Positions 6,638-30,987 of a stretch of 64,000 bases of DNA are shown here, one piece after another. The translations under genes and the position numbers were made by a program. Position 1 is the stretch's first letter. Each line of letters begins with the position of its first letter. Below the pieces are notes generated by a model, which was not told the origin of the DNA, searched no databases, and saw only the letters and a program-made list of their open reading frames with translations. Origin of the DNA: Microvirga alba. GTDB taxonomy: Bacteria; Pseudomonadota; Alphaproteobacteria; Rhizobiales; Beijerinckiaceae. The DNA lies in contig NZ_JADQDO010000013.1 in the NCBI RefSeq assembly GCF_015694465.1, positions 1-64,000 on the forward strand. Reading direction: 5' to 3'.

Positions 6638-7857
6638 AGCTTATTGGTCACGCTCGACATGGCGCGACGAACCCAGCCCGTGCCGAATTCAAGAAGACCG
6701 TCCAAAGCACGCTGCCTCAGGTTTCCTTCCCTGATGTCCTCGTTGGCATAAAGGGGCATTTCTAGGGCCTGCATATCACCACGGTTGACCTGAATCCGGG
6801 CGACCTCGGCTCCCTTCTGAATAGGAGCCTTGAGCGGGCCGGTATAAACGATGCGGGCGGAGATCCGCTCTCCCTCCCCACGACGAACAAGTACACGAAC
6901 GGGCTTCTTGGAGACAAGCGGTAAGGAACGCTGGTCACCGCCGAACACTTGAGCGTCCCCAATGACCTGCCCTTCGGCGAAAAGCTGCTGAGGTTCAAAG
7001 GCGCGGAACCCCCAATCGAGCAGCTTGCGCGCTTCCGTGGCACGATCCTTCGCCGTTTTCATGCCGTTCACGACGACAATGAGTCTTTGGCCGTTCTGGA
7101 CGGCTGAACCGATCAGGCCGTAGCCGGATTCTTCGATATTGCCGGTCTTCAGCCCATCCGCGCCAATGTCCATGGTGAGTAACGGGTTGCGGTTTTGCTG
7201 GCGGATCTTGTTCCAGGTGAATTCGCGCTCTCCGAACATCTTATAGAGATCGGGATAGGTGTCGATGATGAAAAGGCTGAGCTTGGCGAGGTCACGAACC
7301 GTTACCTTCTGGTGTGGGTCGCTATAGCCCGTCGCATTGCGGAAGGTCGATTTTGTGAGGCCGATCTGCTGGGCTCGTTCGTTCATCAACCGGGCGAAGT
7401 TGTCCTCCGTGCCCGAAATGCCTTCTGCGATCGCGATTGCCGCGTCGTTCCCTGATTGGACCACCAAGCCACGCAGAAGATCCTCCAGCCGAATGCTGGT
7501 GTTCACCTTGGCGAACATTGAGGACCCGCCTGAACCCGCCCCCCCTCTGCGCCAGGCGTTCGTGGAGATCGTGAACTCCGAGTTCATCGACAAGCGCCCG
7601 TTCTTCAATTCGCTGAAGACAACTTCCGCCGTCATGGTCTTGGCCATGCTGGCCGGCGCCATCAGCTCATCCGCATTTTTTTCGAACAGAATGGTCTGCG
7701 TATCGGCGTCGATGAGAATGGCGGTCGGCGCCGTGGTCTGGAAGCTCTGCGCCAACGCTTCTCGTGAAAATACCAGCACTGAAATGGCACAGGAAAGAAA
7801 GCCGATAATCGCCAGCTTTCGGGAGCTCGCATCTTGGCGCATCGCAACGACACCCAC
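6634..7857 (-). CDS. D-alanyl-D-alanine carboxypeptidase (PBP5/DacF type, peptidase S11)
   Basis: A 407-residue secreted low-molecular-weight penicillin-binding protein that trims the terminal D-Ala of peptidoglycan stem peptides. An N-terminal signal peptide (hydrophobic stretch about 15-30, possible cleavage after ALA near residue 36) is followed by Ser70-x-x-Lys73 (PASMAK), the SGN motif in VVQSGNDAA, and DGLKTG. The C-terminal part fits the PBP5 beta domain. Neighbours tmk and rlpA are consistent with a cell-wall and division cluster. An ATG at 7842 is an alternative start. Confidence 0.94.
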   Translation of the reverse strand: MGVVAMRQDASSRKLAIIGFLSCAISVLVFSREALAQSFQTTAPTAILIDADTQTILFEKNADELMAPASMAKTMTAEVVFSELKNGRLSMNSEFTISTNAWRRGGAGSGGSSMFAKVNTSIRLEDLLRGLVVQSGNDAAIAIAEGISGTEDNFARLMNERAQQIGLTKSTFRNATGYSDPHQKVTVRDLAKLSLFIIDTYPDLYKMFGEREFTWNKIRQQNRNPLLTMDIGADGLKTGNIEESGYGLIGSAVQNGQRLIVVVNGMKTAKDRATEARKLLDWGFRAFEPQQLFAEGQVIGDAQVFGGDQRSLPLVSKKPVRVLVRRGEGERISARIVYTGPLKAPIQKGAEVARIQVNRGDMQALEMPLYANEDIREGNLRQRALDGLLEFGTGWVRRAMSSVTNKL

Positions 7858-8058
7858 ACGCTTCCCTTAGGACACAGGGAATCTGTGGCGCGCCAAGGAC
7901 AATTCAACGACGGGCCAGCCTCCCTGGCGGGGGCGCTCGATCCTTAGAGCGTGATCAGCAAAAGCAGGATAACCCGATCTTTGCGGCCGATCACGGTCCA
8001 ATTTATTGAACTAGCTTATCATTTTCCGCCGAACCGTCGTGCTTCGGCGGATACCGCG

Positions 8059-9108
8059 CTACCGGAGCACGAACTTCGACTGATCGAGCGTGTTGAAGCT
8101 GCTGCTCTTGTGGAACCCTGCCTTGGATTCCTCCGGCGCGGAATAATACAAGCCGGCCAGGACCGGACGTGACGGCGGAAGAACGGTGGGACCGACCGAG
8201 CTGAGCGTCGCCACGGGCGTCGCCGCACTCGGGATCGTTCCGAGATCGAACGGCCGCTCAGGCGGGAGCGGAATCTTGCTCGCGAAAGACATCGAAACGG
8301 GCGCAGCCGAAGCAACGGTCTGCGCTGCGCTTCCCGCGGCGACAGGGGCCTCATCGGCCTCGTCGCTCGGCTCGTAGGCGCGCAAGGCGATTGCATCGCG
8401 CGGCGCGTTAGGCCGTGGTGAAGCTTGGGCGATCATCGTCGGCGCGGCGCCGGTCAGCGAGGCCGGCTGGCCATCGGTACGAAGGCTGGCGAGCAGAATG
8501 CGGTCGTCGCTGCCATTGGTCGAGGCCCGTCCGACATATTCCACCTTCACGCGCGCCGTGCCCTGGCCCTTGAAGCCGAGCGCGGAGGCGGCGCGCTCTG
8601 ACACGTCGATGATGCGGTTTCCGTGAAACGGCCCGCGATCGTTCACCCGAACGATCATGGAATGGCCGTTCTGCACATTCGTGACGCGAGCATAGCTTGG
8701 CAACGGCATTGTCGTATGGGCTGCGGCGATCGAGGCGCGATCGAAAATCTCGCCGTTCGCGGTCATGCGGCCGTGGAAATTCGACCCATACCAAGAGGCA
8801 AGGCCCACGCCCGCATAGCGGCTATTCTCGTTCGGCTGATAAGTGCGGCCGGCGACCGTGTAGGGCCTTCCAACGAGTTCGCGTCCACCGCCCTTGGGAA
8901 CCGGCTGGCCATCGGCGATGACCTTGGGGCTCGGAGCAACGCCGTATTTCGGGTCGATGCCGCCCCGAACATTGGAGCAGTTCGCGGCCGTCAGTGCGAT
9001 GGCGGTAACGCCTGCAATGCGGAGGATGGCCTGATGATTGACCGAGGCAATGCGCCCCTTCAATCCGGTCTTCGACTCGGCGCGATCACAATGCATATCG
9101 TTGCGCAT
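8059..9108 (-). CDS. rlpA: Septal ring lytic transglycosylase RlpA family protein
   Basis: The protein has a hydrophobic N-terminus and then a double-psi beta-barrel: GLASWYGSNFHG, TANGEIFD, RVNDRGPFHGNRIIDVS and ALGFKGQGTARVKVEYVG. This is the RlpA catalytic core, which cleaves naked glycan at the septum. The C-terminus is Pro/Ala/Ser-rich and no SPOR domain is obvious. The reading frame opens to 9225, but the ATGs at 9108 and 9096 fit a normal signal sequence better. The cysteine context (TAANC) is a poor lipobox because Asn precedes Cys, so lipidation is uncertain. Confidence 0.85.
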   Translation of the reverse strand: MRNDMHCDRAESKTGLKGRIASVNHQAILRIAGVTAIALTAANCSNVRGGIDPKYGVAPSPKVIADGQPVPKGGGRELVGRPYTVAGRTYQPNENSRYAGVGLASWYGSNFHGRMTANGEIFDRASIAAAHTTMPLPSYARVTNVQNGHSMIVRVNDRGPFHGNRIIDVSERAASALGFKGQGTARVKVEYVGRASTNGSDDRILLASLRTDGQPASLTGAAPTMIAQASPRPNAPRDAIALRAYEPSDEADEAPVAAGSAAQTVASAAPVSMSFASKIPLPPERPFDLGTIPSAATPVATLSSVGPTVLPPSRPVLAGLYYSAPEESKAGFHKSSSFNTLDQSKFVLR

Positions 9109-9699
9109 TCCCTTAGTTCGCACATCTCGCGGCACCCAATTCAGCAGGGCAGCCACCAAGGTGCTATTTCGGCGCTTAAGGGAAGGTGAAATAGCCGCGC
9201 TTGTCAATGGCAAAGCTCGCGTCAACGATACATTGTATATAAGCGTTTATAATTCATATATAACAAAGACTTACAAAATTTTCACGCGAGCCGCGCAGGC
9301 AATTCACGGTGCATAACGTTTCGGCCGAACCCCTGCCCCGGACTGCGATCACGCGACACACTGCGAGCCCCGGGGATCGCGAGAAAGGTGTGCATCCATG
9401 CGGAAAAATATCAATTAGATCAAATTTTTAGCCTCGTATCGCTCCGTCCGCACGAGGGTGAATCATATAGACCCGCACCTCTTCTCCGCGTCGCCGAACC
9501 AGATTTCGTTAACCAGACTTGCAAGGAGAGACACGAATCGACCGCCCCCATGTTCCTGGACGTTTCGGTCGATTGGCAAATGCGTCCAGCAGCCTCACTG
9601 CCTGGTCAAACGTGCGCACCAGTTGACGGCGATGGGCTCGCGGCCTTAGACAGCCTTTATCGCGAAACGAGGGCGGCACAGGCTCGCTTCCTCGTATCC
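9109..9699. other. Intergenic region between rlpA and tRNA-Ser
   Basis: This stretch contains an AT-rich patch at about 9225-9285, unlike the flanking GC-rich DNA, that could hold the rlpA promoter. No convincing gene was found; a long plus-strand frame here runs through the tRNA gene and is not credible. Confidence 0.5.
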
Positions 9700-9789
9700 G
9701 GAGGGGTGGCCGAGTGGTTTAAGGCAGCGGTCTTGAAAACCGCCGTGCGGGCAACCGTACCGTGGGTTCGAATCCCACCCCCTCCGCCA
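9700..9789 (+). tRNA. tRNA-Ser (anticodon UGA)
   Basis: A 90-base class II tRNA folds by eye. The acceptor GGAGGGG (9700-9706) pairs with CCCCTCC (9779-9785). The anticodon stem GCGGT/ACCGC (9727-9731 and 9739-9743) encloses loop CTTGAAA with anticodon TGA at 9734-9736. There is a long variable arm, a T-stem GTGGG/CCCAC, discriminator G and encoded CCA (9787-9789). The 3' end appears to have served as an integration target, since its last 14 bases recur at 45464-45477. Confidence 0.97.
9776..9789 (+). repeat. Putative attL (3' end of tRNA-Ser), 14-bp direct repeat
   Basis: The sequence caccccctccgcca ends the tRNA-Ser gene and is repeated exactly and in the same orientation at 45464-45477 beside the integrase gene. 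The match stops abruptly on both sides. P4-type integrases commonly use tRNA 3' ends, and the resulting direct repeats mark the ends of the inserted DNA. Confidence 0.65.
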
Positions 9790-13274: not shown

Positions 13275-13736
13275 ATGTCCCTCCACGCCTCGGCGACAGA
13301 GGCAGCCGAGTCATTGCGGCGCCAAGAGCGACGTCATGAGAAGTATGAGCGTTTGGTCAGCGTGACGCTCGCGCTGCCCAGACTCAAGGTTGCCGTCGCG
13401 CACCCATGCGACGTGGCCTCGCTCGATGCCGTGATGGAAGCCGTCGAGATGGGCCTGATCGAACCCATTCTCGTCGGCCCGCGCGACAAGATCGCGGCTG
13501 CGGCTAAGGACTTAGGCGGGGACATCTCCGCTCTGACGATCATCGACGCGCCGCACAGCCACGCCTCGGCGCACCAAGCTGTCGGCCTCGTCCGGGCGGG
13601 CAAGGCCGAAGCCCTCATGAAAGGGAGCCTCCACACCGACGAGTTGATGAGCGCCGTGGTGCAGAAGGAAGGCGGCCTCAGAACCGCGCGCCGGATAATG
13701 ACGCCCGCGCGAGGGCGCGATCATGAGCGAAGCTAA
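13275..13736 (+). pseudogene. 3'-truncated phosphate acetyl/butyryltransferase
   Basis: The first ~145 residues match the N-terminal part of the phosphotransacetylase family (also the C-terminal domain of bifunctional enoyl-CoA hydratase/Pta proteins): VAVAHPCDVASLDAV, a LVGPRDKI stretch, and MKGSLHTDELMSAVV followed by GGLRTARRI. Full-length members need about 300 residues. Here homology stops after ARRI and the frame ends within about twelve unrelated residues, right at the 3' end of the convergent cax gene. A deletion probably removed the catalytic half. A good start with GGAG upstream remains. Confidence 0.75.
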
Positions 13737-17678: not shown

Positions 17679-18516
17679 GGGTCCGGACCCATAAACTGAT
17701 TGGCGCCGCCGGGTCGGTACGATTCACGGCTTCCGGGAGGAAGCGAAGATGAATCGGGACCGTTTTTGGCTTACAGAAGCGCAATTCGCGCGGATCGAGC
17801 CGCATTTGCCCACGGATACGCGCGGGAAGCCTCGTGTTGACGACCGCCGGGTGATCAGCGGCATCGTCCATGTCCTGAAGTCAGGCGGGCGTTGGATCGA
17901 TGCGCCGCCCGACTACGGGCCGCGCAAGACGCTCTACAACCGCTATGTCCGGTGGGCCGCCAGAGGTGTCTGGGTCGATCTCTTCCATGCCTTGGCAAGC
18001 GCCGGCGGTCCTCCGGCCCAGGTGCTCATCGATTCCTCCGCCGTGAAGGCGCATCGCTCGGCCTCGGGTGGAAAAGGGGGGAGCGCTGCCAAGCCATCGG
18101 CCGCTCGCGCGGCGGCCGCACGACCAAAATCCACGCGTTAGCCGATCGCGACTGCCGGCCCATCGCCTTCCTGCTCACCGGCGGACAAGTCGCTGATTGC
18201 ACGGCCGGATCGGCCCTGCTGAAGCAGATGCCGCCGGCGCGCGTCCTCCATGGCGACAAGGGCTACGACAGTAACGCCATTCGCCGGCAGATTGAGGAGA
18301 ACGGCACGATGCCCAACATCCCGCCCAAGGCGAATAGGCGCTGGAAGAACTGCTTCTCGCCCACCCTCTACCGCGACCGCAACGCCATCGAGCGCATGTT
18401 CTGTCGCCTAAAAGACTTCCGCCGCGTCGCCACGCGATACGACCGCCTCGCCGTCAACTTCCTCGCCGCCGTCTGCATCGCAGCAACCGTCAGCTACTGG
18501 TTATGAGTCCGAACCC
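17679..18516 (+). mobile_element. IS5 family (IS427-type) insertion sequence
   Basis: The ends show imperfect inverted repeats: GGGTCCGGACCCATAA at 17679 and, on the reverse strand from 18516, GGGTTCGGACTCATAA. The element is 838 bp, normal for the IS427 group, and is bounded by TA on both sides (17677-17678 and 18517-18518), consistent with the short target duplication of this group. It encloses a two-frame DDE transposase. It sits against the truncated RND gene. Confidence 0.88.
17749..18506 (+). CDS. IS5/IS427-type transposase, two frames joined by a -1 frameshift
   Basis: The first frame (17749-18141) encodes the N-terminal DUF4096-like part and the first catalytic Asp in VLIDSSAVKAHR. 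The second frame (-1) carries LHGDKGYDS with the second Asp and DRNAIERMFCRLKDFRR with the Glu. The frames overlap at an A4G6 run (18072-18081), where a -1 slip continues as ERCQAIGRSRGG. A fused product of about 250 residues has all three DDE residues. Programmed frameshifting is known for this IS group, so the element may still be active. Confidence 0.85.
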
Positions 18517-24230: not shown

Positions 24231-24663
24231 GCTGCAAAATCTCCACCGCAGGGTATTCAGAATAGCTTGAGGCGACATTACGCAAAAGTGAGGTTGGGCA
24301 TAAACTGCGCGCCGCTTTGTCGGAGTGACGAATAACCGAAGGACCGCTAACCACCCGTCGCGGACATTCGCAGCGCCCACGTCGAATGGCAGCTTTGGGG
24401 CCGGGAGCGGACTGGCGGCTTCTGGAAGGCTTATGATGGATACTAGACGCTCGGAGCATCGTGCAAAACGCAGAATTTCGTCTCAGATGAATGGCTGTGA
24501 GCTGCACTGTGCCGGCCTAAAACACCACCGTCGCATTTCTAACTGGCTAGATGGTCACTTGCCGTGCGTATTAAAGTCGGCGCTAGGGATTTGCTTGCAT
24601 TGCTTAAGACCGAGCGACGAGGTGCCGCTCGATCAGGATGATGCTCAGTGGCATTGCCAAGCT
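24231..24663. other. Intergenic gap with degenerate repeat copy
   Basis: No gene was found. Around 24361-24415 it contains CGGACATTC and GAATGGCAGCTTTGGGG blocks that resemble sequences at 28680 and 31284. The short plus-strand frame here looks non-coding. Confidence 0.4.
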
Positions 24664-27600
24664 TCAGTCGTAGAGGACGCCGATGATCTTCCTGGCTGAA
24701 GTCATTATCGGGACGTCCGGAGTTTGATCGAGCTGTTCGGTGGCGATGAGCACCGACGATCCTAGTCCCCCGATCGTCTCGAACTGCCGAAGATGGCGGA
24801 GCCGCCCCGATAGTCTTGCACCCACGCGTTTGAAAACACTGGCACCTATGCTAAGCGACACAGCAATCAAGTGTCCTTCACACGCGTCGAGGTCCGACGG
24901 TTGTAGCTCATCGCCACCCAGTACGATCTGCCCTGGAAGGGCCAGCGGTACTGCGCTGTCTTCCTTCACCCGATAGGCGATCGCGATCCTCGCCAGTTCT
25001 GGCACGTCCCCGATCTCGGTTGCCTCATCACCTCCTTTAGGAGGCGGCATGGTACTAAAAATAACTCCGACGATCCGGTGCAGCTTTATTTTGCTTTCGT
25101 CGAATATCAGGCTCTTTCGCGATTGCCTGGGATCCGGCATCTGGGCGGCGAGCGATATTCCAGTCGATCCCGTCGCGCGGATAAGGCGTCGTGCCAGCAC
25201 CTGCCCTTTCGGACGAGCGATGACCAAATTCTGATCCCGCCCAGGATAGGGCTCCGACTCCACGATCGCGACAGAACCTGAAGGAATCGCGAAGCCGAGA
25301 GTTTCTCCCCGAATGAAGTACAGCGACTTGGAATCGAACCACTCTCCAATCAACTGTTCCTCCGCCACATCCTGAGAACCATCGTCGGACAACTTTCCCA
25401 CGAAAGCAGCGATGTCAGGGCAAAGAGGAACGGCAAAGCTTGGTCGTGCCATCGGCTTCAATGCGACAACATTGTCAGGGCGCGCATCGGGAGCGAGTGG
25501 TTCGCGCCACCGATGGTATCGGAACTGCTGATGGACATCTTCGATGCTGCTGCGCAATTGGGCGAACTGCGGCGCGACGTTCTTCACGTCCATGTAGGTG
25601 ATCGAGGACTTGTCGTGGTGGGATGTATTGAGCACCTGGCGCGCTTCTGCGCCAGCGCCGAGCGCCGGATTGTCGGCGAAACGTCTTACGGTGGCATTCG
25701 TGAAAAGTTCTCCCTCGCCCGTGGCGACAAGCCCTTTGAGCTTATCCACCAGAGGGAACAGCGTCAGGGCCTTGGTGCCGGCAGAGTATGCTGGATGAGT
25801 GAGCTCATCGAAGAGATCCCCCAGCCGCCCTTCGAGGAACACTCGCAATGCCGAGGCATAGTCCTGGGCGCGGATGGCGTCATCGGGATTCTTGAAAAAC
25901 TCCTCACGCTTGCGGTCGACCTCCTCTATCGCCGGCGATAGGCTCAGCGTTGGGCGCACGGCGTTGACAGGGTGAACGGAAACATGCGCGACGACATCAT
26001 CGGCCCTGTTCTCCCCAACGACCGATCGAGCGAACTTGCGATCATGGGTTGTCACCAGTAGCTGTGCTCCGGTCCGGGCGACCTTGCTCAGTCCTCGGGC
26101 CAGCCGCTCTCGATTATCGTTGTCGAGCAATTCCTGCGGATCATCCAGGACCAGCAGCTCCAGACCTCCGCGCGTCGCCAGGACGTGCTCGCGAAAGGCG
26201 AGGAAGAAGCCAAGCAAGGCGCCTCGGAGAGCTGAGGCGTTCGAGATGTGTTGGGCCGGCGCTTCCACTCCCTGCCGACCGACCCTCAGTTCCAGAATGC
26301 CCTTGGCGTCCATTCCGGTGTTTGTCAGCTCCGGAGCGAACTCGGTGGCGTTGCGGAACATTTCCTTCCGCCAATGCTCCGAACGCCGGTGAAGCTTGGT
26401 TCGAAGTGCATCCACTTGGGTCTGCGCGAGCCCGCCGAGCGGCACGATGACCGCGAGGGCCTCCCTGGCCTTGCCGCACGCTTCGATGCGAGTTTTCGTT
26501 TGGACATGCTCGCCCTTGCTGCGCAGCATGCGGCCGACGAGGTCGATCGCACTGTTCAGCGGGGTTGCGCCCTCCACAATCGCCAACAGCGCTGCGAGCC
26601 GCCTGGAAATAGCGCGATCAGCATCCTCGGATCCGTCTTCACCTTTCTGGAATATATGCGAGAGCTTCCGAAGCCTAGCGGAGTTCGTCTCCCGCCACTC
26701 GGCGAATGCGAGTGCACGGTTGATCCGAGCGACCATTTGTTCCAGCGCCTTGGCAGCGGATAGCTGTTCTGGAAGTTTGAAGGCGGTAGGCTCGTCGAAT
26801 GCGGGGAGCGTCGCTGCGTGCTTGTCGAACAGGTCGGCTGCATCGGAGGACAGTGGAGCAAGCGTCCCTGACATCGACTCGGTTTCGAACAGTTCTTTCA
26901 GGAAGCCCTCACGCAATAAACTGACCGGGGACGATGGCAAATCTCGCCGAGCTTCGGTGCCGATGCTCTCCGGCAATTCGCGCACCAGTCTGCCGAGCCA
27001 AAGGCTCGACCACTCCGCGATGGTCCTCGCAACGGTTTCTCGGTCCTTGGCTGCTTCCGTCAAATGATCGGTAACCCCACGACCGGTGACGGGGTCGACG
27101 GCGCCCTCAAGCGATCGGATGCAGATCGGGCAGTTGTTTCCGTGGGCCTCGTCGTGATCGTGCATCCATGCAGACACACGCGCATACAACTGGGCACGGC
27201 GCGCCAGATCCGGGCTGCTCGCGAGTTCGTTCAAGGTTGCTGCTTCAGCTTCAACCGCGCCGATGAGCTCGACCACCTTTGCTGTCTGGCCCTGATCGAC
27301 CTTTAGGGCGAGCAAGCGAGCTATCGCAGGCAAGCCGGCCAGTTGTTTGATCTGCTCGATCGCAGGCCGCACGCTTCGTTCGAGACCGTCGCGCGCTTGC
27401 TTGCTCTCAGAATCGAACGTCTCGCCGAGCACCTCGCGCGCAGCGGCAAGGCGGGTCGTCTTGAGAGCGGCGAAACCGTTGGATATCGCGTCCAGCCTAT
27501 CCTTCGCTTCTGCCGCTTCGGCGGTTGGTAGACCACCTTCGATCGCCATGTCGGAATGCGCATCGACAATGGCTAGCAGGTCGCTGGACTGTTCCTGGTA

Positions 27601-28569
27601 CTGCCGGACGGCTTGGTCCAGTTTCGAGTTCAGTTCCTTCACGGTCCTTGTGGTGATGCGATCGGAGACCTTGTCCGCGTGCTTGGCCAGATCGACCAGA
27701 TCGGCAAGCCCCGTCAGTCTAGCAACCGCCTCCCCCAGTTGCGACGCTGAGCCCACTGAGAGGAATGGCAGCAGTGCAGGCATCGTCGTGGCGATCCGCC
27801 AGGCTATGGGATCGAGGTCGATACCTGAGAAGTCTGGTGCGACTTCAACGATCCTTCCCCTGGGCGTTCGCTCCTGCCGCCGCAGAATAGGCGGGAGCGT
27901 ATTGCCCTGGGCGTCGCAGAAGGTCAGTTCGACCCAGCCGTCTGCGGGTATCGGTGCCCCATCGACGGGCAGATCGCTGTGCGCGTGAGGAAGTGGCGTG
28001 ATCGCCGACATAGGATGCTTGGTCGATCTTCCATCCGAATGCGAGACCTCGCAGGGAAATTCTACCGGTCCTTGCTCCGGGGCACGCTGGGATCGGATCA
28101 ACTGACCGGTCAGGCACCAGACGATCGCATTGGCTATGGAGGTTTTCCCCGAACCGTTTGCGCCCTCGAACAGTGTGATCGGCTTGCCGGGCGCGAACTC
28201 GAAGATATCGGGCGGTTCGCTGGTTTTCCCGTAGAGATGCAGGCCGGCGAACCGATGGGCCCTGAGTTTGAGAAGGCGCAATCGACTTCCCGACGGAGCA
28301 TTGTTGGTCCCACCAGTCGTAACAACGCTCGCCGGCTCTGACCCTACAAGATCTATAAGGGCCTCCACATCGTCGCCATTCAGGTTCGCGGCCCATTTGT
28401 TTGGGTTTCGACGGTACCAATCGAGCATGGCCCTGGCATCTGATGAAACGATTCCAAGTCGCTTCTCTCCGCCCAGTGAGACCTCACATCCATTCACCAG
28501 CTCCGAGAGCAGGACATCGGTTGTGAGAAGATGGATTTCCCTTACTGCACTTTGTTTCTCAGTTATCAC
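24664..28569 (-). CDS. SMC/Rad50-like ATPase with two tandem C-terminal LexA/S24-like domains (probable defence protein)
   Basis: A 1301-residue protein starting at a GTG after a G-rich ribosome site. Order: helical N-terminus (1-100); ABC N-half with P-loop GANGSGKTS (Lys142); long helical arms with a zinc-hook-like NCPIC (Cys480, Cys483); ABC C-half with Walker B LLVLDDPQ (about 805) and H-loop VTTHD (about 840); an all-alpha part with SHHDKSSITYMDV; then two similar ~95-residue repeats. Repeat 1 has ETLGFAIPSG (Thr1090) and LARRL (Arg1127). Repeat 2 has DSAVPLALPG (Ser1205) and FKRV (Lys1247). Both end in (I/L)xxIxGV. The spacing matches the LexA/S24 Ser-Lys protease fold. It is divergent from a Septu-like pair. 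The defence role is inferred from context. Confidence 0.75.
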   Translation of the reverse strand: MITEKQSAVREIHLLTTDVLLSELVNGCEVSLGGEKRLGIVSSDARAMLDWYRRNPNKWAANLNGDDVEALIDLVGSEPASVVTTGGTNNAPSGSRLRLLKLRAHRFAGLHLYGKTSEPPDIFEFAPGKPITLFEGANGSGKTSIANAIVWCLTGQLIRSQRAPEQGPVEFPCEVSHSDGRSTKHPMSAITPLPHAHSDLPVDGAPIPADGWVELTFCDAQGNTLPPILRRQERTPRGRIVEVAPDFSGIDLDPIAWRIATTMPALLPFLSVGSASQLGEAVARLTGLADLVDLAKHADKVSDRITTRTVKELNSKLDQAVRQYQEQSSDLLAIVDAHSDMAIEGGLPTAEAAEAKDRLDAISNGFAALKTTRLAAAREVLGETFDSESKQARDGLERSVRPAIEQIKQLAGLPAIARLLALKVDQGQTAKVVELIGAVEAEAATLNELASSPDLARRAQLYARVSAWMHDHDEAHGNNCPICIRSLEGAVDPVTGRGVTDHLTEAAKDRETVARTIAEWSSLWLGRLVRELPESIGTEARRDLPSSPVSLLREGFLKELFETESMSGTLAPLSSDAADLFDKHAATLPAFDEPTAFKLPEQLSAAKALEQMVARINRALAFAEWRETNSARLRKLSHIFQKGEDGSEDADRAISRRLAALLAIVEGATPLNSAIDLVGRMLRSKGEHVQTKTRIEACGKAREALAVIVPLGGLAQTQVDALRTKLHRRSEHWRKEMFRNATEFAPELTNTGMDAKGILELRVGRQGVEAPAQHISNASALRGALLGFFLAFREHVLATRGGLELLVLDDPQELLDNDNRERLARGLSKVARTGAQLLVTTHDRKFARSVVGENRADDVVAHVSVHPVNAVRPTLSLSPAIEEVDRKREEFFKNPDDAIRAQDYASALRVFLEGRLGDLFDELTHPAYSAGTKALTLFPLVDKLKGLVATGEGELFTNATVRRFADNPALGAGAEARQVLNTSHHDKSSITYMDVKNVAPQFAQLRSSIEDVHQQFRYHRWREPLAPDARPDNVVALKPMARPSFAVPLCPDIAAFVGKLSDDGSQDVAEEQLIGEWFDSKSLYFIRGETLGFAIPSGSVAIVESEPYPGRDQNLVIARPKGQVLARRLIRATGSTGISLAAQMPDPRQSRKSLIFDESKIKLHRIVGVIFSTMPPPKGGDEATEIGDVPELARIAIAYRVKEDSAVPLALPGQIVLGGDELQPSDLDACEGHLIAVSLSIGASVFKRVGARLSGRLRHLRQFETIGGLGSSVLIATEQLDQTPDVPIMTSARKIIGVLYD

Positions 28570-28816
28570 GTCGCCCCCCGTCAGAAATGATAGCTTTGCG
28601 TAGCCTCGGCATCATGTCCAGAAGGCGCAATCGCCATGCACGGAAATTAGTCCGCCATCTAACCACGCATTCAGGTTGCCTTTGCGATGGCAGTTTTGGG
28701 AGATCACCGATCGCGTCTGAGCGACTGAAATGAGGGCGCTAAGCAGATAAAAATCGCCTGTCCGTAATCACTCTCGACACGGCGCACAAAACGCTCAAGA
28801 ATTGCCAAAAGGCATA

Positions 28817-30343
28817 ATGGGGGAAGGGTTTATGTACGCCGAAAATGACTTTCAGTTACTGGAAGCGCGCACTGCCGATGTGCGCGTTGAGATTCCATGG
28901 CGACGCAAGGACCGCCCCTATATCAATCCCCACGCCGTGTTCAGCCGCATACCCCACGCCGATGGCGAACAGCACGAACATCTGACGGCCGTCATCGGCA
29001 AAAACGGTACCGGCAAATCCCATCTCCTGAGCGCCATCGTTCAGACGTTCCTGCGCCTTGAGGAACTGCAGCAGGGCACGCGAAAAGAGATCAAGGGCGG
29101 CCTGCCACTGGACCTGCTGGTCTATCGCGTGGATGGCTATCACTGCACGATCATGCAGAGGGGGCATCGTTCGATCAGCATCCAGGTCAACGATCGCGAA
29201 GTTGCTCCTGAAGACCTTCCTCTGCCCAAACGCATCGTCGCGCTGACCATCAGCCCGTTCGACAAGTTCCCGCTGCCCCGAACCATCCCCCGATCGGTGG
29301 TGCAGGTCGATGCCGCATCATCGATGTATCACTACCTCGGACTGCGGGACAATTTCGGGAAGGCATCGATCCGGACGCTCCTGTTCCGCTCCTTAAGCAG
29401 CCTGTTCGATACAACAGACAACAGTGCCCTCCGGCTGAGCAACATCGGCGCTGTGTTCGAATTCCTCGGCATGCGACCGATGATCAACGTCATCTACCGC
29501 TTCAGGGAAAGGTCGTTACTCCGCGAGATCGCGGGCGGGCTCGATCCTTACACCGCCGACACGGCATCCTATACGCAGAGGCGTCTGCTCGAAGACATCG
29601 TTCGAAGCGAAATTCCGTCATCCACCCTTCGAGGGCTGGCAAACCTTGCCCTCGACAAGGTTGTCCGTAACCGGATCGAAACGCGCGCAGACCTAGAATC
29701 CGGATTTCAGGACCCGCTGTTTCTTGACCTGCAGCCGCTGCGCCGCGCAGGTTTCCTGAGTGTGTCTGGCGTTGGTGTTGAGCTCAAGGATGGCGGCCCG
29801 ACAGACCTGCTTCAGGCAAGCTCCGGTCAGCTGAGCATGGTCTCTGCGCTGATCGCGCTCACCTCGGTCATCGAGAACGGCAGTCTGGTGCTCATCGACG
29901 AGCCAGAACTCAGCCTGCATCCTGAGTGGCAGGTGAAGTACATCGATCTGCTGCTGCGCACTTTCGCCCGGTACCATGGCTGTCATTTCGTGGTGGCCAC
30001 GCACTCGCCCATGGTGATCTCCGAGCTGCCTGTGCACGCCGAAGTCATCTCGCTCGACCAGGAAAAGCTGCCATCCACCAAGGAACTGCAGGGACAGTCG
30101 GCAGACTATCTCCTCGCCGAAGTGTTCGGTGCGCCGACGCCAAACAATCTCCACGTCCGGGACCGGATCGTCACTGCGCTGCGCATGATCGCAAATGGGG
30201 ATGTGAATTCGAAGGCGTTTGGGGAAGCGCTTGCAGACCTGCGCAAATTCGCGACCGAGCTGGAGCCGAGTGATCCGGCAGCCGAGCTGATCAAAAACGT
30301 TGAAGACGCTGCGCGGGACGCAGGGACTGAGGCGCAGTCATGA
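28817..30343 (+). CDS. Septu PtuA-like AAA/ABC ATPase
   Basis: An ATPase of about 508 residues of the OLD/AAA_15 type. P-loop VIGKNGTGKSHLL lies near residue 60, followed by an insert of roughly 280 residues. The ABC-like signature SSGQLSMVSALIAL is followed at once by LVLIDEPELSLHPEWQ (Walker B and D-loop) and VVATHSPMVISELP (H-loop). Its stop overlaps the start of the HNH gene by four bases. An ATPase coupled to an HNH nuclease is the Septu (PtuAB) arrangement, also used as retron effectors; no reverse transcriptase was seen here. Start options are ATG 28817 or 28832 (GGAAGG four bases upstream). Confidence 0.82.
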   Translation: MGEGFMYAENDFQLLEARTADVRVEIPWRRKDRPYINPHAVFSRIPHADGEQHEHLTAVIGKNGTGKSHLLSAIVQTFLRLEELQQGTRKEIKGGLPLDLLVYRVDGYHCTIMQRGHRSISIQVNDREVAPEDLPLPKRIVALTISPFDKFPLPRTIPRSVVQVDAASSMYHYLGLRDNFGKASIRTLLFRSLSSLFDTTDNSALRLSNIGAVFEFLGMRPMINVIYRFRERSLLREIAGGLDPYTADTASYTQRRLLEDIVRSEIPSSTLRGLANLALDKVVRNRIETRADLESGFQDPLFLDLQPLRRAGFLSVSGVGVELKDGGPTDLLQASSGQLSMVSALIALTSVIENGSLVLIDEPELSLHPEWQVKYIDLLLRTFARYHGCHFVVATHSPMVISELPVHAEVISLDQEKLPSTKELQGQSADYLLAEVFGAPTPNNLHVRDRIVTALRMIANGDVNSKAFGEALADLRKFATELEPSDPAAELIKNVEDAARDAGTEAQS

Positions 30344-30987
30344 CTCCCGTTCAATATGGCGCCGCGTGCCAGGCTGTGGTCGATACTTTCAACGCACGCG
30401 AGCCTGCGCAGAAGGACCACAACTACTGGAACGATCCCGTCATCGACCCGGTTCGTGCGGAGATCAAGGACCACTACATCGCGGAACAGAACCGTCGGTG
30501 CTGCTATTGCAACCGCGAGTATCCGACTAACAACAAGGCGGTCTGGGATGGCGAGCACATCATCGCCAAGAGTCTCGCGCCGCGCTTCATGTTTGAGCCG
30601 CGCAATCTGGCGGCGTCATGCAAGGACTGCAACATCGCGAAGGGCGAAGATGAAATCCGCGTCGATCCCAACCGGAAGTCATTTCCTGATCAGTCACAGC
30701 ACTACATCATCGTCCATCCGCACTTTGACGACTACGATGATCATATCCGGTGGTATGGCGATGCCGTAAAGCCTCTGTCACCCAAGGGTGGCGAGCTCGT
30801 TGGCATGTGCAAGCTGTGGCGCTTTGGGGTCGCCAAGGCTGGCGTCGAAGTGGCTCCGCCCAACCCTCTGGTGGACGGGCTGATCGGCGTCATGATGGAC
30901 CCCCAGGCAGACCCTTTGACCAAGGCAGTCGCTATCGAAGGGTATAAAGAATACGTGAGGGCGCGGGCCCAGAAGCCGGCAGACTAG
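30340..30987 (+). CDS. HNH endonuclease, Septu PtuB-like
   Basis: A 215-residue nuclease. A zinc knuckle, RRCCYCNREY, and a second Cys pair, SCKDCN, flank the HNH core: GEHIIAKSLAP (His of the catalytic strand), RNLAASC (Asn) and CNIAKGEDE. This order, with the Lys-Gly after the last Cys pair, is typical of the HNH proteins coupled to AAA ATPases. It overlaps the ATPase gene by ATGA, so the two are translationally coupled. It is expected to be the DNA- or RNA-cleaving effector held by the ATPase until infection. The target is not known. Confidence 0.85.
   Translation: MTPVQYGAACQAVVDTFNAREPAQKDHNYWNDPVIDPVRAEIKDHYIAEQNRRCCYCNREYPTNNKAVWDGEHIIAKSLAPRFMFEPRNLAASCKDCNIAKGEDEIRVDPNRKSFPDQSQHYIIVHPHFDDYDDHIRWYGDAVKPLSPKGGELVGMCKLWRFGVAKAGVEVAPPNPLVDGLIGVMMDPQADPLTKAVAIEGYKEYVRARAQKPAD

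Follow-up and report, generated by a model that had tools for sequence, protein, structure and literature searches.

Organization of the locus

The window analysed here is a stretch of 64,000 nucleotides from Microvirga alba (contig NZ_JADQDO010000013.1, positions 1 to 64,000), and the subject of this work is a large minus-strand gene within it, referred to as the big gene, whose 1301-residue product appears to join a Rad50/SbcC-like ATPase and a zinc hook to a HEPN-like domain and a tail of two LexA-fold domains (Table 1). The gene is divergent from a plus-strand pair encoding the Septu proteins PtuA and PtuB. Long relatives of the 1301-residue protein occur in many genomes and plasmids, and the open reading frame (ORF) is thus no chance frame. 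The three ORFs had been put forward in an original prediction made from the DNA letters alone and were confirmed, including the CPIC motif of the large ORF (residues 480–483) and the overlap between the PtuA-like and HNH ORFs. The predicted gap of 247 bp between the divergent genes holds if PtuA starts at ATG 28817; from the TTG start of the ORF it is 232 bp, and from a third possible start, ATG 28832, which is preceded by GGGAAGGG, it is 262 bp. The same prediction had described the large protein as an SMC/Rad50-type ATPase with zinc hook and a LexA-like tail, and the plus-strand genes as a Septu-like ATPase/HNH pair, all of which is borne out by the profile, structure and conservation data below.

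Table 1. Features of the big gene and the adjacent Septu pair (positions in the window).
Feature	Position	Strand	Description
Big gene, 1301-aa protein	24664..28569	minus	GTG start; Rad50/SbcC-like ATPase, zinc hook, HEPN-like domain and two LexA-fold domains
Big protein, residues 1-867	25969..28569	minus	Split Rad50-like ABC ATPase, coiled-coil-type insert, zinc hook
Big protein, residues 868-1026	25492..25968	minus	HEPN-like helical domain; R909, E913 and H985 invariant (R-X3-E-X71-H here)
Big protein, residues about 1041-1171	25057..25449	minus	First LexA-fold domain (copy 1), degenerate
Big protein, residues 1054-1056 (A-A-F)	25402..25410	minus	Matches LexA cleavage site in profile alignment; A1055 invariant
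Big protein, residues 1172-1301	24667..25056	minus	Second LexA-fold domain (copy 2); S1205 and K1247-R1248 conserved
178 bp upstream of big gene	28570..28747	minus	Common to the window and the PtuAB-less Shinella locus L026
PtuA, Septu ATPase, 513-aa ORF	28802..30343	plus	TTG ORF start, ATG 28817 or 28832 possible; separate system
PtuB, Septu HNH nuclease, 215-aa ORF	30340..30987	plus	Overlaps PtuA by ATGA; separate system

Domain architecture and conservation of the big protein

Conservation was assessed in 71 proteins, comprising the window protein and the products of 70 intact loci. These were taken from 90 loci, made up of 10 plasmid neighbourhoods, out of 25 matching plasmid records, and 80 genome loci, kept from the 87 relatives that a scan of genomes with one peptide pattern had yielded; 20 of the 90 failed on intactness owing to stops, frameshifts, truncation or contig ends, and two of the 70 (L041 and L072) are cut near the end by the contig. 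Further alignments (A2, A3 and A4) used 61 of 64, 57 of 64 and 61 of 62 available sequences, respectively. The loci are not independent events, with L027 and L032 having the same neighbours at identical distances. Across the 71 proteins, 41 of the 1301 columns were invariant (at most one gap).

The ATPase region matched AAA_23 (E 3.1e-11), a family matched by all 15 members searched, and Rad50 in a PDB profile search (E 6.5e-11). The Walker A region was located at G136–K142 and a DDPQ motif at 809–812, and the ABC signature was found to be atypical, with N777, S779 and R782 invariant. Both cysteines of the zinc hook (C480-x-x-C483) were invariant in the 71 proteins. The Rad50_zn_hook model of Pfam was matched at E <= 0.01 by one of the 15 members, and the term coiled coil refers here to the type of insert and not to a computed feature.

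The segment following the ATPase was predicted to adopt a helical HEPN fold. Its R909-X3-E913 motif and H985 were invariant, with a spacing from the glutamate to the histidine of 64–72 residues (71 in 42 of the 71 proteins), and N981 was present in all but one protein (70/71, with H985 in 71/71). Regarding the Rx4-6H motif of most HEPN RNases, an arginine lies 4–6 residues before H984 in 48 proteins and before H985 in 26, while 23 have neither. An alignment of 15 members, reaching down to 21% identity, kept the key residues save A1055 (Gly), N981 and H984, in one member each. The last 434 columns of the 71-protein alignment hold nine invariant residues (R909, E913, H985, A1055, V1103, L1140, S1205, K1247 and R1248), six of which, judged by sequence, would be those expected to work (R909, E913, H985, A1055, S1205 and K1247).

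The RNase domains of PrrC and RloC have been assigned to HEPN (PMC3710099), and in RloC replacement of any one of the R-X3-E...H catalytic residues by alanine was reported to abolish activity (PMC2610378). Most of ten long AAA_13 relatives (PF13166, the RloC family) that were aligned had R-X3-E and a Ser-His following an Asn. In sequence searches the HEPN part gave no significant match to PDB chains, and no Pfam family was matched by that of the window member; among the other 56 of the 57 members searched, matches were weak and scattered (best E 0.036). No PDB relative was found at E <= 0.001 for two AAA_13 proteins, hence the comparison with PrrC and RloC is not a structural one. By analogy, the big-gene family can be likened to RloC in domain order, fold and triad, though membership of RloC is not claimed, and the HEPN-like domain would be expected to cut RNA or tRNA.

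Profile comparison and predicted structure both recovered the fold of the LexA C-domain for the two tail copies, the LexA-like tail thus being two such domains in tandem. Copy 2 has a Ser-Lys dyad, S1205 being found in 71 of 71 proteins and K1247 in 70, with one gap. No dyad was found in copy 1: its residue at the Ser position is T (46), N (12), S (8), W (3) or G (2), and at the Lys position mostly Arg. A1055 was kept in 71/71 and coincides with the cleavage-site alanine of LexA in the profile alignment. Since the degenerate copy has the loop and the intact copy has the dyad, the sequences suggest that one copy cuts the loop of the other. LexA structure rows (VIA) spanning model residues 180–434, available as range ends only, hint at packing of the cleavage-loop strand against copy 2 in the predicted model.

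A putative RloC-like effector with a LexA-type switch

The domain order, predicted folds and key-residue invariance of the big protein, together with its having no fixed partner and a frequent defence setting (see below), are computed features, and on balance we lean towards the big gene being a single-gene, mobile, RloC-like RNA-cutting effector, with the ATPase as its gate and LexA-type self-cleavage as its switch. The Rad50/SbcC-like ATPase and zinc hook would sense the state of the DNA or of the replication and repair machinery, and the HEPN-like domain would be a metal-independent ribonuclease acting like the anticodon nuclease of RloC and PrrC. Copy 2 would supply the Ser-Lys protease dyad and the degenerate copy 1 the substrate loop (A1055), placed right after the RNase domain. 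Upon activation, a cut at the A1055 loop would part the ATPase-RNase (about residues 1–1055) from the tail (about 1056–1301), which would unleash the RNase or, alternatively, shut it down. Given the order of RNase, cut loop, degenerate copy and intact copy, the tail would be a natural inhibitor that cutting sheds. A proteolytic step would thereby be added to the RloC type of logic. Published work on RloC describes an internal switch, a putative sensor of double-strand breaks with a coupled ATPase, and activation by break inducers (PMC3874168). For the big protein, we infer that the trigger could be a RecA filament, DNA ends or a phage factor, and both the direction of the switch and a purpose in phage defence are proposed on the same basis. 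A more specific version, a one-protein immune switch in which a RecA-filament or DNA-end signal makes the active LexA copy cut its degenerate twin and so frees an RloC-like anticodon nuclease, leading from an SOS-type signal to translation arrest without transcription, is offered tentatively and is rather doubtful.

Some observations weigh against an RloC-like, self-cleaving effector. The spacing Arg-X3-Glu-X36-52-His of RloC is not found in the big-gene family (64–72), none of the 15 members matched AAA_13 (PF13166) at E <= 0.01, and a profile comparison of the HEPN part with AAA_13 was not significant (E 0.097, with L123 left out of the AAA_13 set). LexA-type proteins have an Ala-Gly, or Cys-Gly, cleavage site and usually self-cleave when bound to a RecA filament. 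In the big-gene family the residue after A1055 is F in 43 and R in 21 of the 71 proteins, and not Gly. RecA-independent control has been reported for IrvR (PMC7101444). The residues in question (F or R in 64/71), the degeneracy of copy 1, and the matches of copy 2 to signal peptidases, which cut other proteins, would also fit a protein whose RNase is as proposed but whose LexA-like tail serves in binding or regulation, or acts as a protease on some other protein. For binding alone the fold would need no dyad, however, and S1205 and K1247 are present in every intact member covering them, as is A1055 in all 71, and we regard such a tail as unlikely, if worth keeping in mind.

Compared with RloC, the zinc-hook anticodon nuclease, the proposed effector shares a Rad50-like ATPase, a CxxC zinc hook, its occurrence as a single gene rarely with a fixed partner, and an HEPN-type domain with R-X3-E...H after the ATPase. 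It differs, apart from the points above, in its length (1301 residues against about 725–800 in the long AAA_13 frames compared), an extra N-terminal segment before the P-loop, the two C-terminal LexA domains and the atypical ABC signature. PrrC likewise combines an ABC ATPase with an R-E-H anticodon nuclease domain, but it lacks a zinc hook and is linked to a type I restriction enzyme (PMC2610378), and no LexA tail is described for it in that source. LexA, CI and UmuD (S24) resemble the tail in the fold of both domains, the dyad of copy 2 and the alanine at the cleavage-site position, whereas the big protein has two copies, one of them degenerate, no DNA-binding domain that could be seen and no Gly after the Ala, and carries its tail fused to ATPase and RNase-like domains.

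No description of an ABC-HEPN-LexA fusion was found among the matches listed in the open-licence literature searched. If the proposal is true, a LexA self-cleaving switch and a Rad50-like anticodon nuclease are combined in one chain, providing a post-translational route from the sensing of DNA damage to translation arrest, and pairing an intact with a degenerate LexA copy in tandem would be a novel regulatory arrangement. The invariant residues make the proposal directly testable by point mutants. The family is widespread (87 relatives in the single-pattern genome scan) and is known to family libraries (PADLOC, Pfam and NCBIfam) through general ATPase models only.

Relationship to the neighbouring Septu pair

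PtuA and PtuB matched the PADLOC models PDLC00283 (E 3.1e-93) and PDLC00325 (E 8.1e-58), respectively, and the two genes are an ordinary type I Septu pair forming a PtuA-PtuB operon; the 1301-residue protein falls outside this system. The original prediction had instead joined the three genes into one system, with the large ATPase as sensor or regulator of the nuclease pair, and had called for a search for PtuAB-like pairs near homologues of the large ATPase. In this search, which covered ORFs of at least 60 aa in flanks of up to 8–10 kb (shorter at contig ends), PtuB relatives were found in none of the 90 big-gene neighbourhoods and PtuA-like ATPases in two, both weak matches (L058 and L036), and profiles built from PtuA and PtuB proteins, eight of each, left the outcome unchanged (2/90 and 0/90). 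The ATPase of L036 is HEC-04-like. In L058 (Ralstonia pickettii SSH4, 7074–9679) a PDC-M01A ATPase gene, paired with one for an HNH-like protein, is divergent from the big-gene relative, which is the one case among the 90 that resembles the window, and speaks for a joint system together with the divergent adjacency in the window itself.

The genome-wide distributions point the other way. Across 397 genomes of the order, the big protein had any match in 15 and a strong one in 8 (E 4.6e-86 or better; one of these, G228, is partial, spanning residues 343–1301, and contains stops), and a PtuA relative (E <= 1e-30) was found in five, with the genome of the window alone having both. The closest relative found, in Shinella sp. 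H4-D48 (L026), shares 91% DNA identity over window positions 24641–28747, spanning the whole big gene and the upstream segment in Table 1 and ending short of PtuA, and this locus has no PtuAB. A second, short DNA match to L026 was found at 24393–24495. Conversely, seven other PtuAB loci (L130–L136, the seven fetched of 16 other places found) contain PtuA and PtuB, with the big ATPase absent from all seven within the stretch covered. A three-gene Septu system was rejected on these grounds, the probability left to it being very small, and the big gene belongs to a single-gene family of its own. Cleavage of tRNA-Tyr has been demonstrated for a Septu system (PMC13096335), and by analogy the Septu pair and the big gene may both be tRNA-directed defences, each complete alone, a coincidence worth noting.

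Distribution and genomic context of the big-gene family

Of the 25 plasmid records with a match, 11 were typed as conjugative and 8 as mobilizable. Within the genus, the big protein was found in two of 48 genomes, the second copy being 38% identical and having a stop, as expected for a sporadically gained gene. No match to the big protein was found in phages. The big gene is broken on a Bradyrhizobium guangxiense plasmid (L022) and on sister plasmids. The matches in six more Bradyrhizobium plasmid records also fall into four pieces, which cover 100% of the query in three records and 56% in the other three.

When the 1326 neighbouring ORFs from the 90 loci were clustered, no fixed partner emerged; the commonest cluster, which is SbcD-like, occurred in 12 of the 90 loci, and a conserved operon partner was rejected. 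The nearest neighbours were scanned as one ORF per locus (81 of 147 upstream and 83 of 154 downstream candidates), and among the families listed (25 of 68 upstream and 25 of 65 downstream) were models of AbiE, Mokosh, Hhe, Druantia, BREX, type III restriction, reverse-transcriptase defence and CBASS cyclases, each matched by 1–4 of the 81 upstream or 1–2 of the 83 downstream ORFs. Such a pattern fits a gene that is sufficient by itself and frequently lies close to defence genes.

The Rad50-like ATPase with its zinc hook, the rank of the SbcD-like cluster, the annotated SbcD/SMC genes adjoining on some plasmids and the share of conjugative or mobilizable plasmid records (19/25) would also suit an SbcC-like SMC protein that works with SbcD-type nucleases in DNA repair or plasmid maintenance and is no toxin. 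This we consider improbable: 78 of the 90 loci lack the SbcD-like neighbour in the clustering, its position and strand vary where it occurs, and the invariant R-X3-E...H and the Ser-Lys dyad would be left unexplained.

Four Bradyrhizobium loci (L023, L086, L090 and L093) have the big gene followed, at gaps of 89–575 bp, by an SbcD-like gene and one for a protein of ~1261 aa, and may form a subclade in which the partner is real. In three Mesorhizobium loci (L019, L081 and L094) a protein of ~2000 aa, annotated as DUF3320 in L019, is encoded directly upstream of the big gene.

Lamassu was also considered, as the protein shares with LmuB a generic Rad50/SMC-type ATPase (PDLC03859, E 3.2e-19). The match is unspecific, the same model matching an SbcC-like neighbour at E 4.5e-23, and Lamassu was rejected. 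No LmuA lies beside the window gene, whose neighbours are PtuA and a RibD_C protein, and none was seen next to its relatives in the families listed (25 of 68 upstream, 25 of 65 downstream).

Of 86 upstream regions, 3 contained an SOS box of the GTTC-N7-GTTC type on either strand, and window positions 28401–28900 gave no match to any SOS box pattern searched. The suggestion that the locus lies in a tRNA-borne island with repeat-rich flanks was not supported: the sole tRNA found in the window (Ser, 9700–9789) is about 15 kb off, no tandem repeats were found in 8–40 kb, and the repeats found in 22–34 kb are just imperfect pairs of 18–37 nt. No integrase was found among 10 scanned ORFs or five scanned flanking ORFs, which are part of the ORFs of the window, and comparison of genomes of the genus gave no clean empty site. 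Elsewhere in the window, an IS-type DDE transposase is split over two frames at 17749–18506 (IS transposase match at 17892–18506), and an ORF at 13275–13736 matches a phosphate acetyltransferase model over just its first ~40% and is probably a truncated gene.
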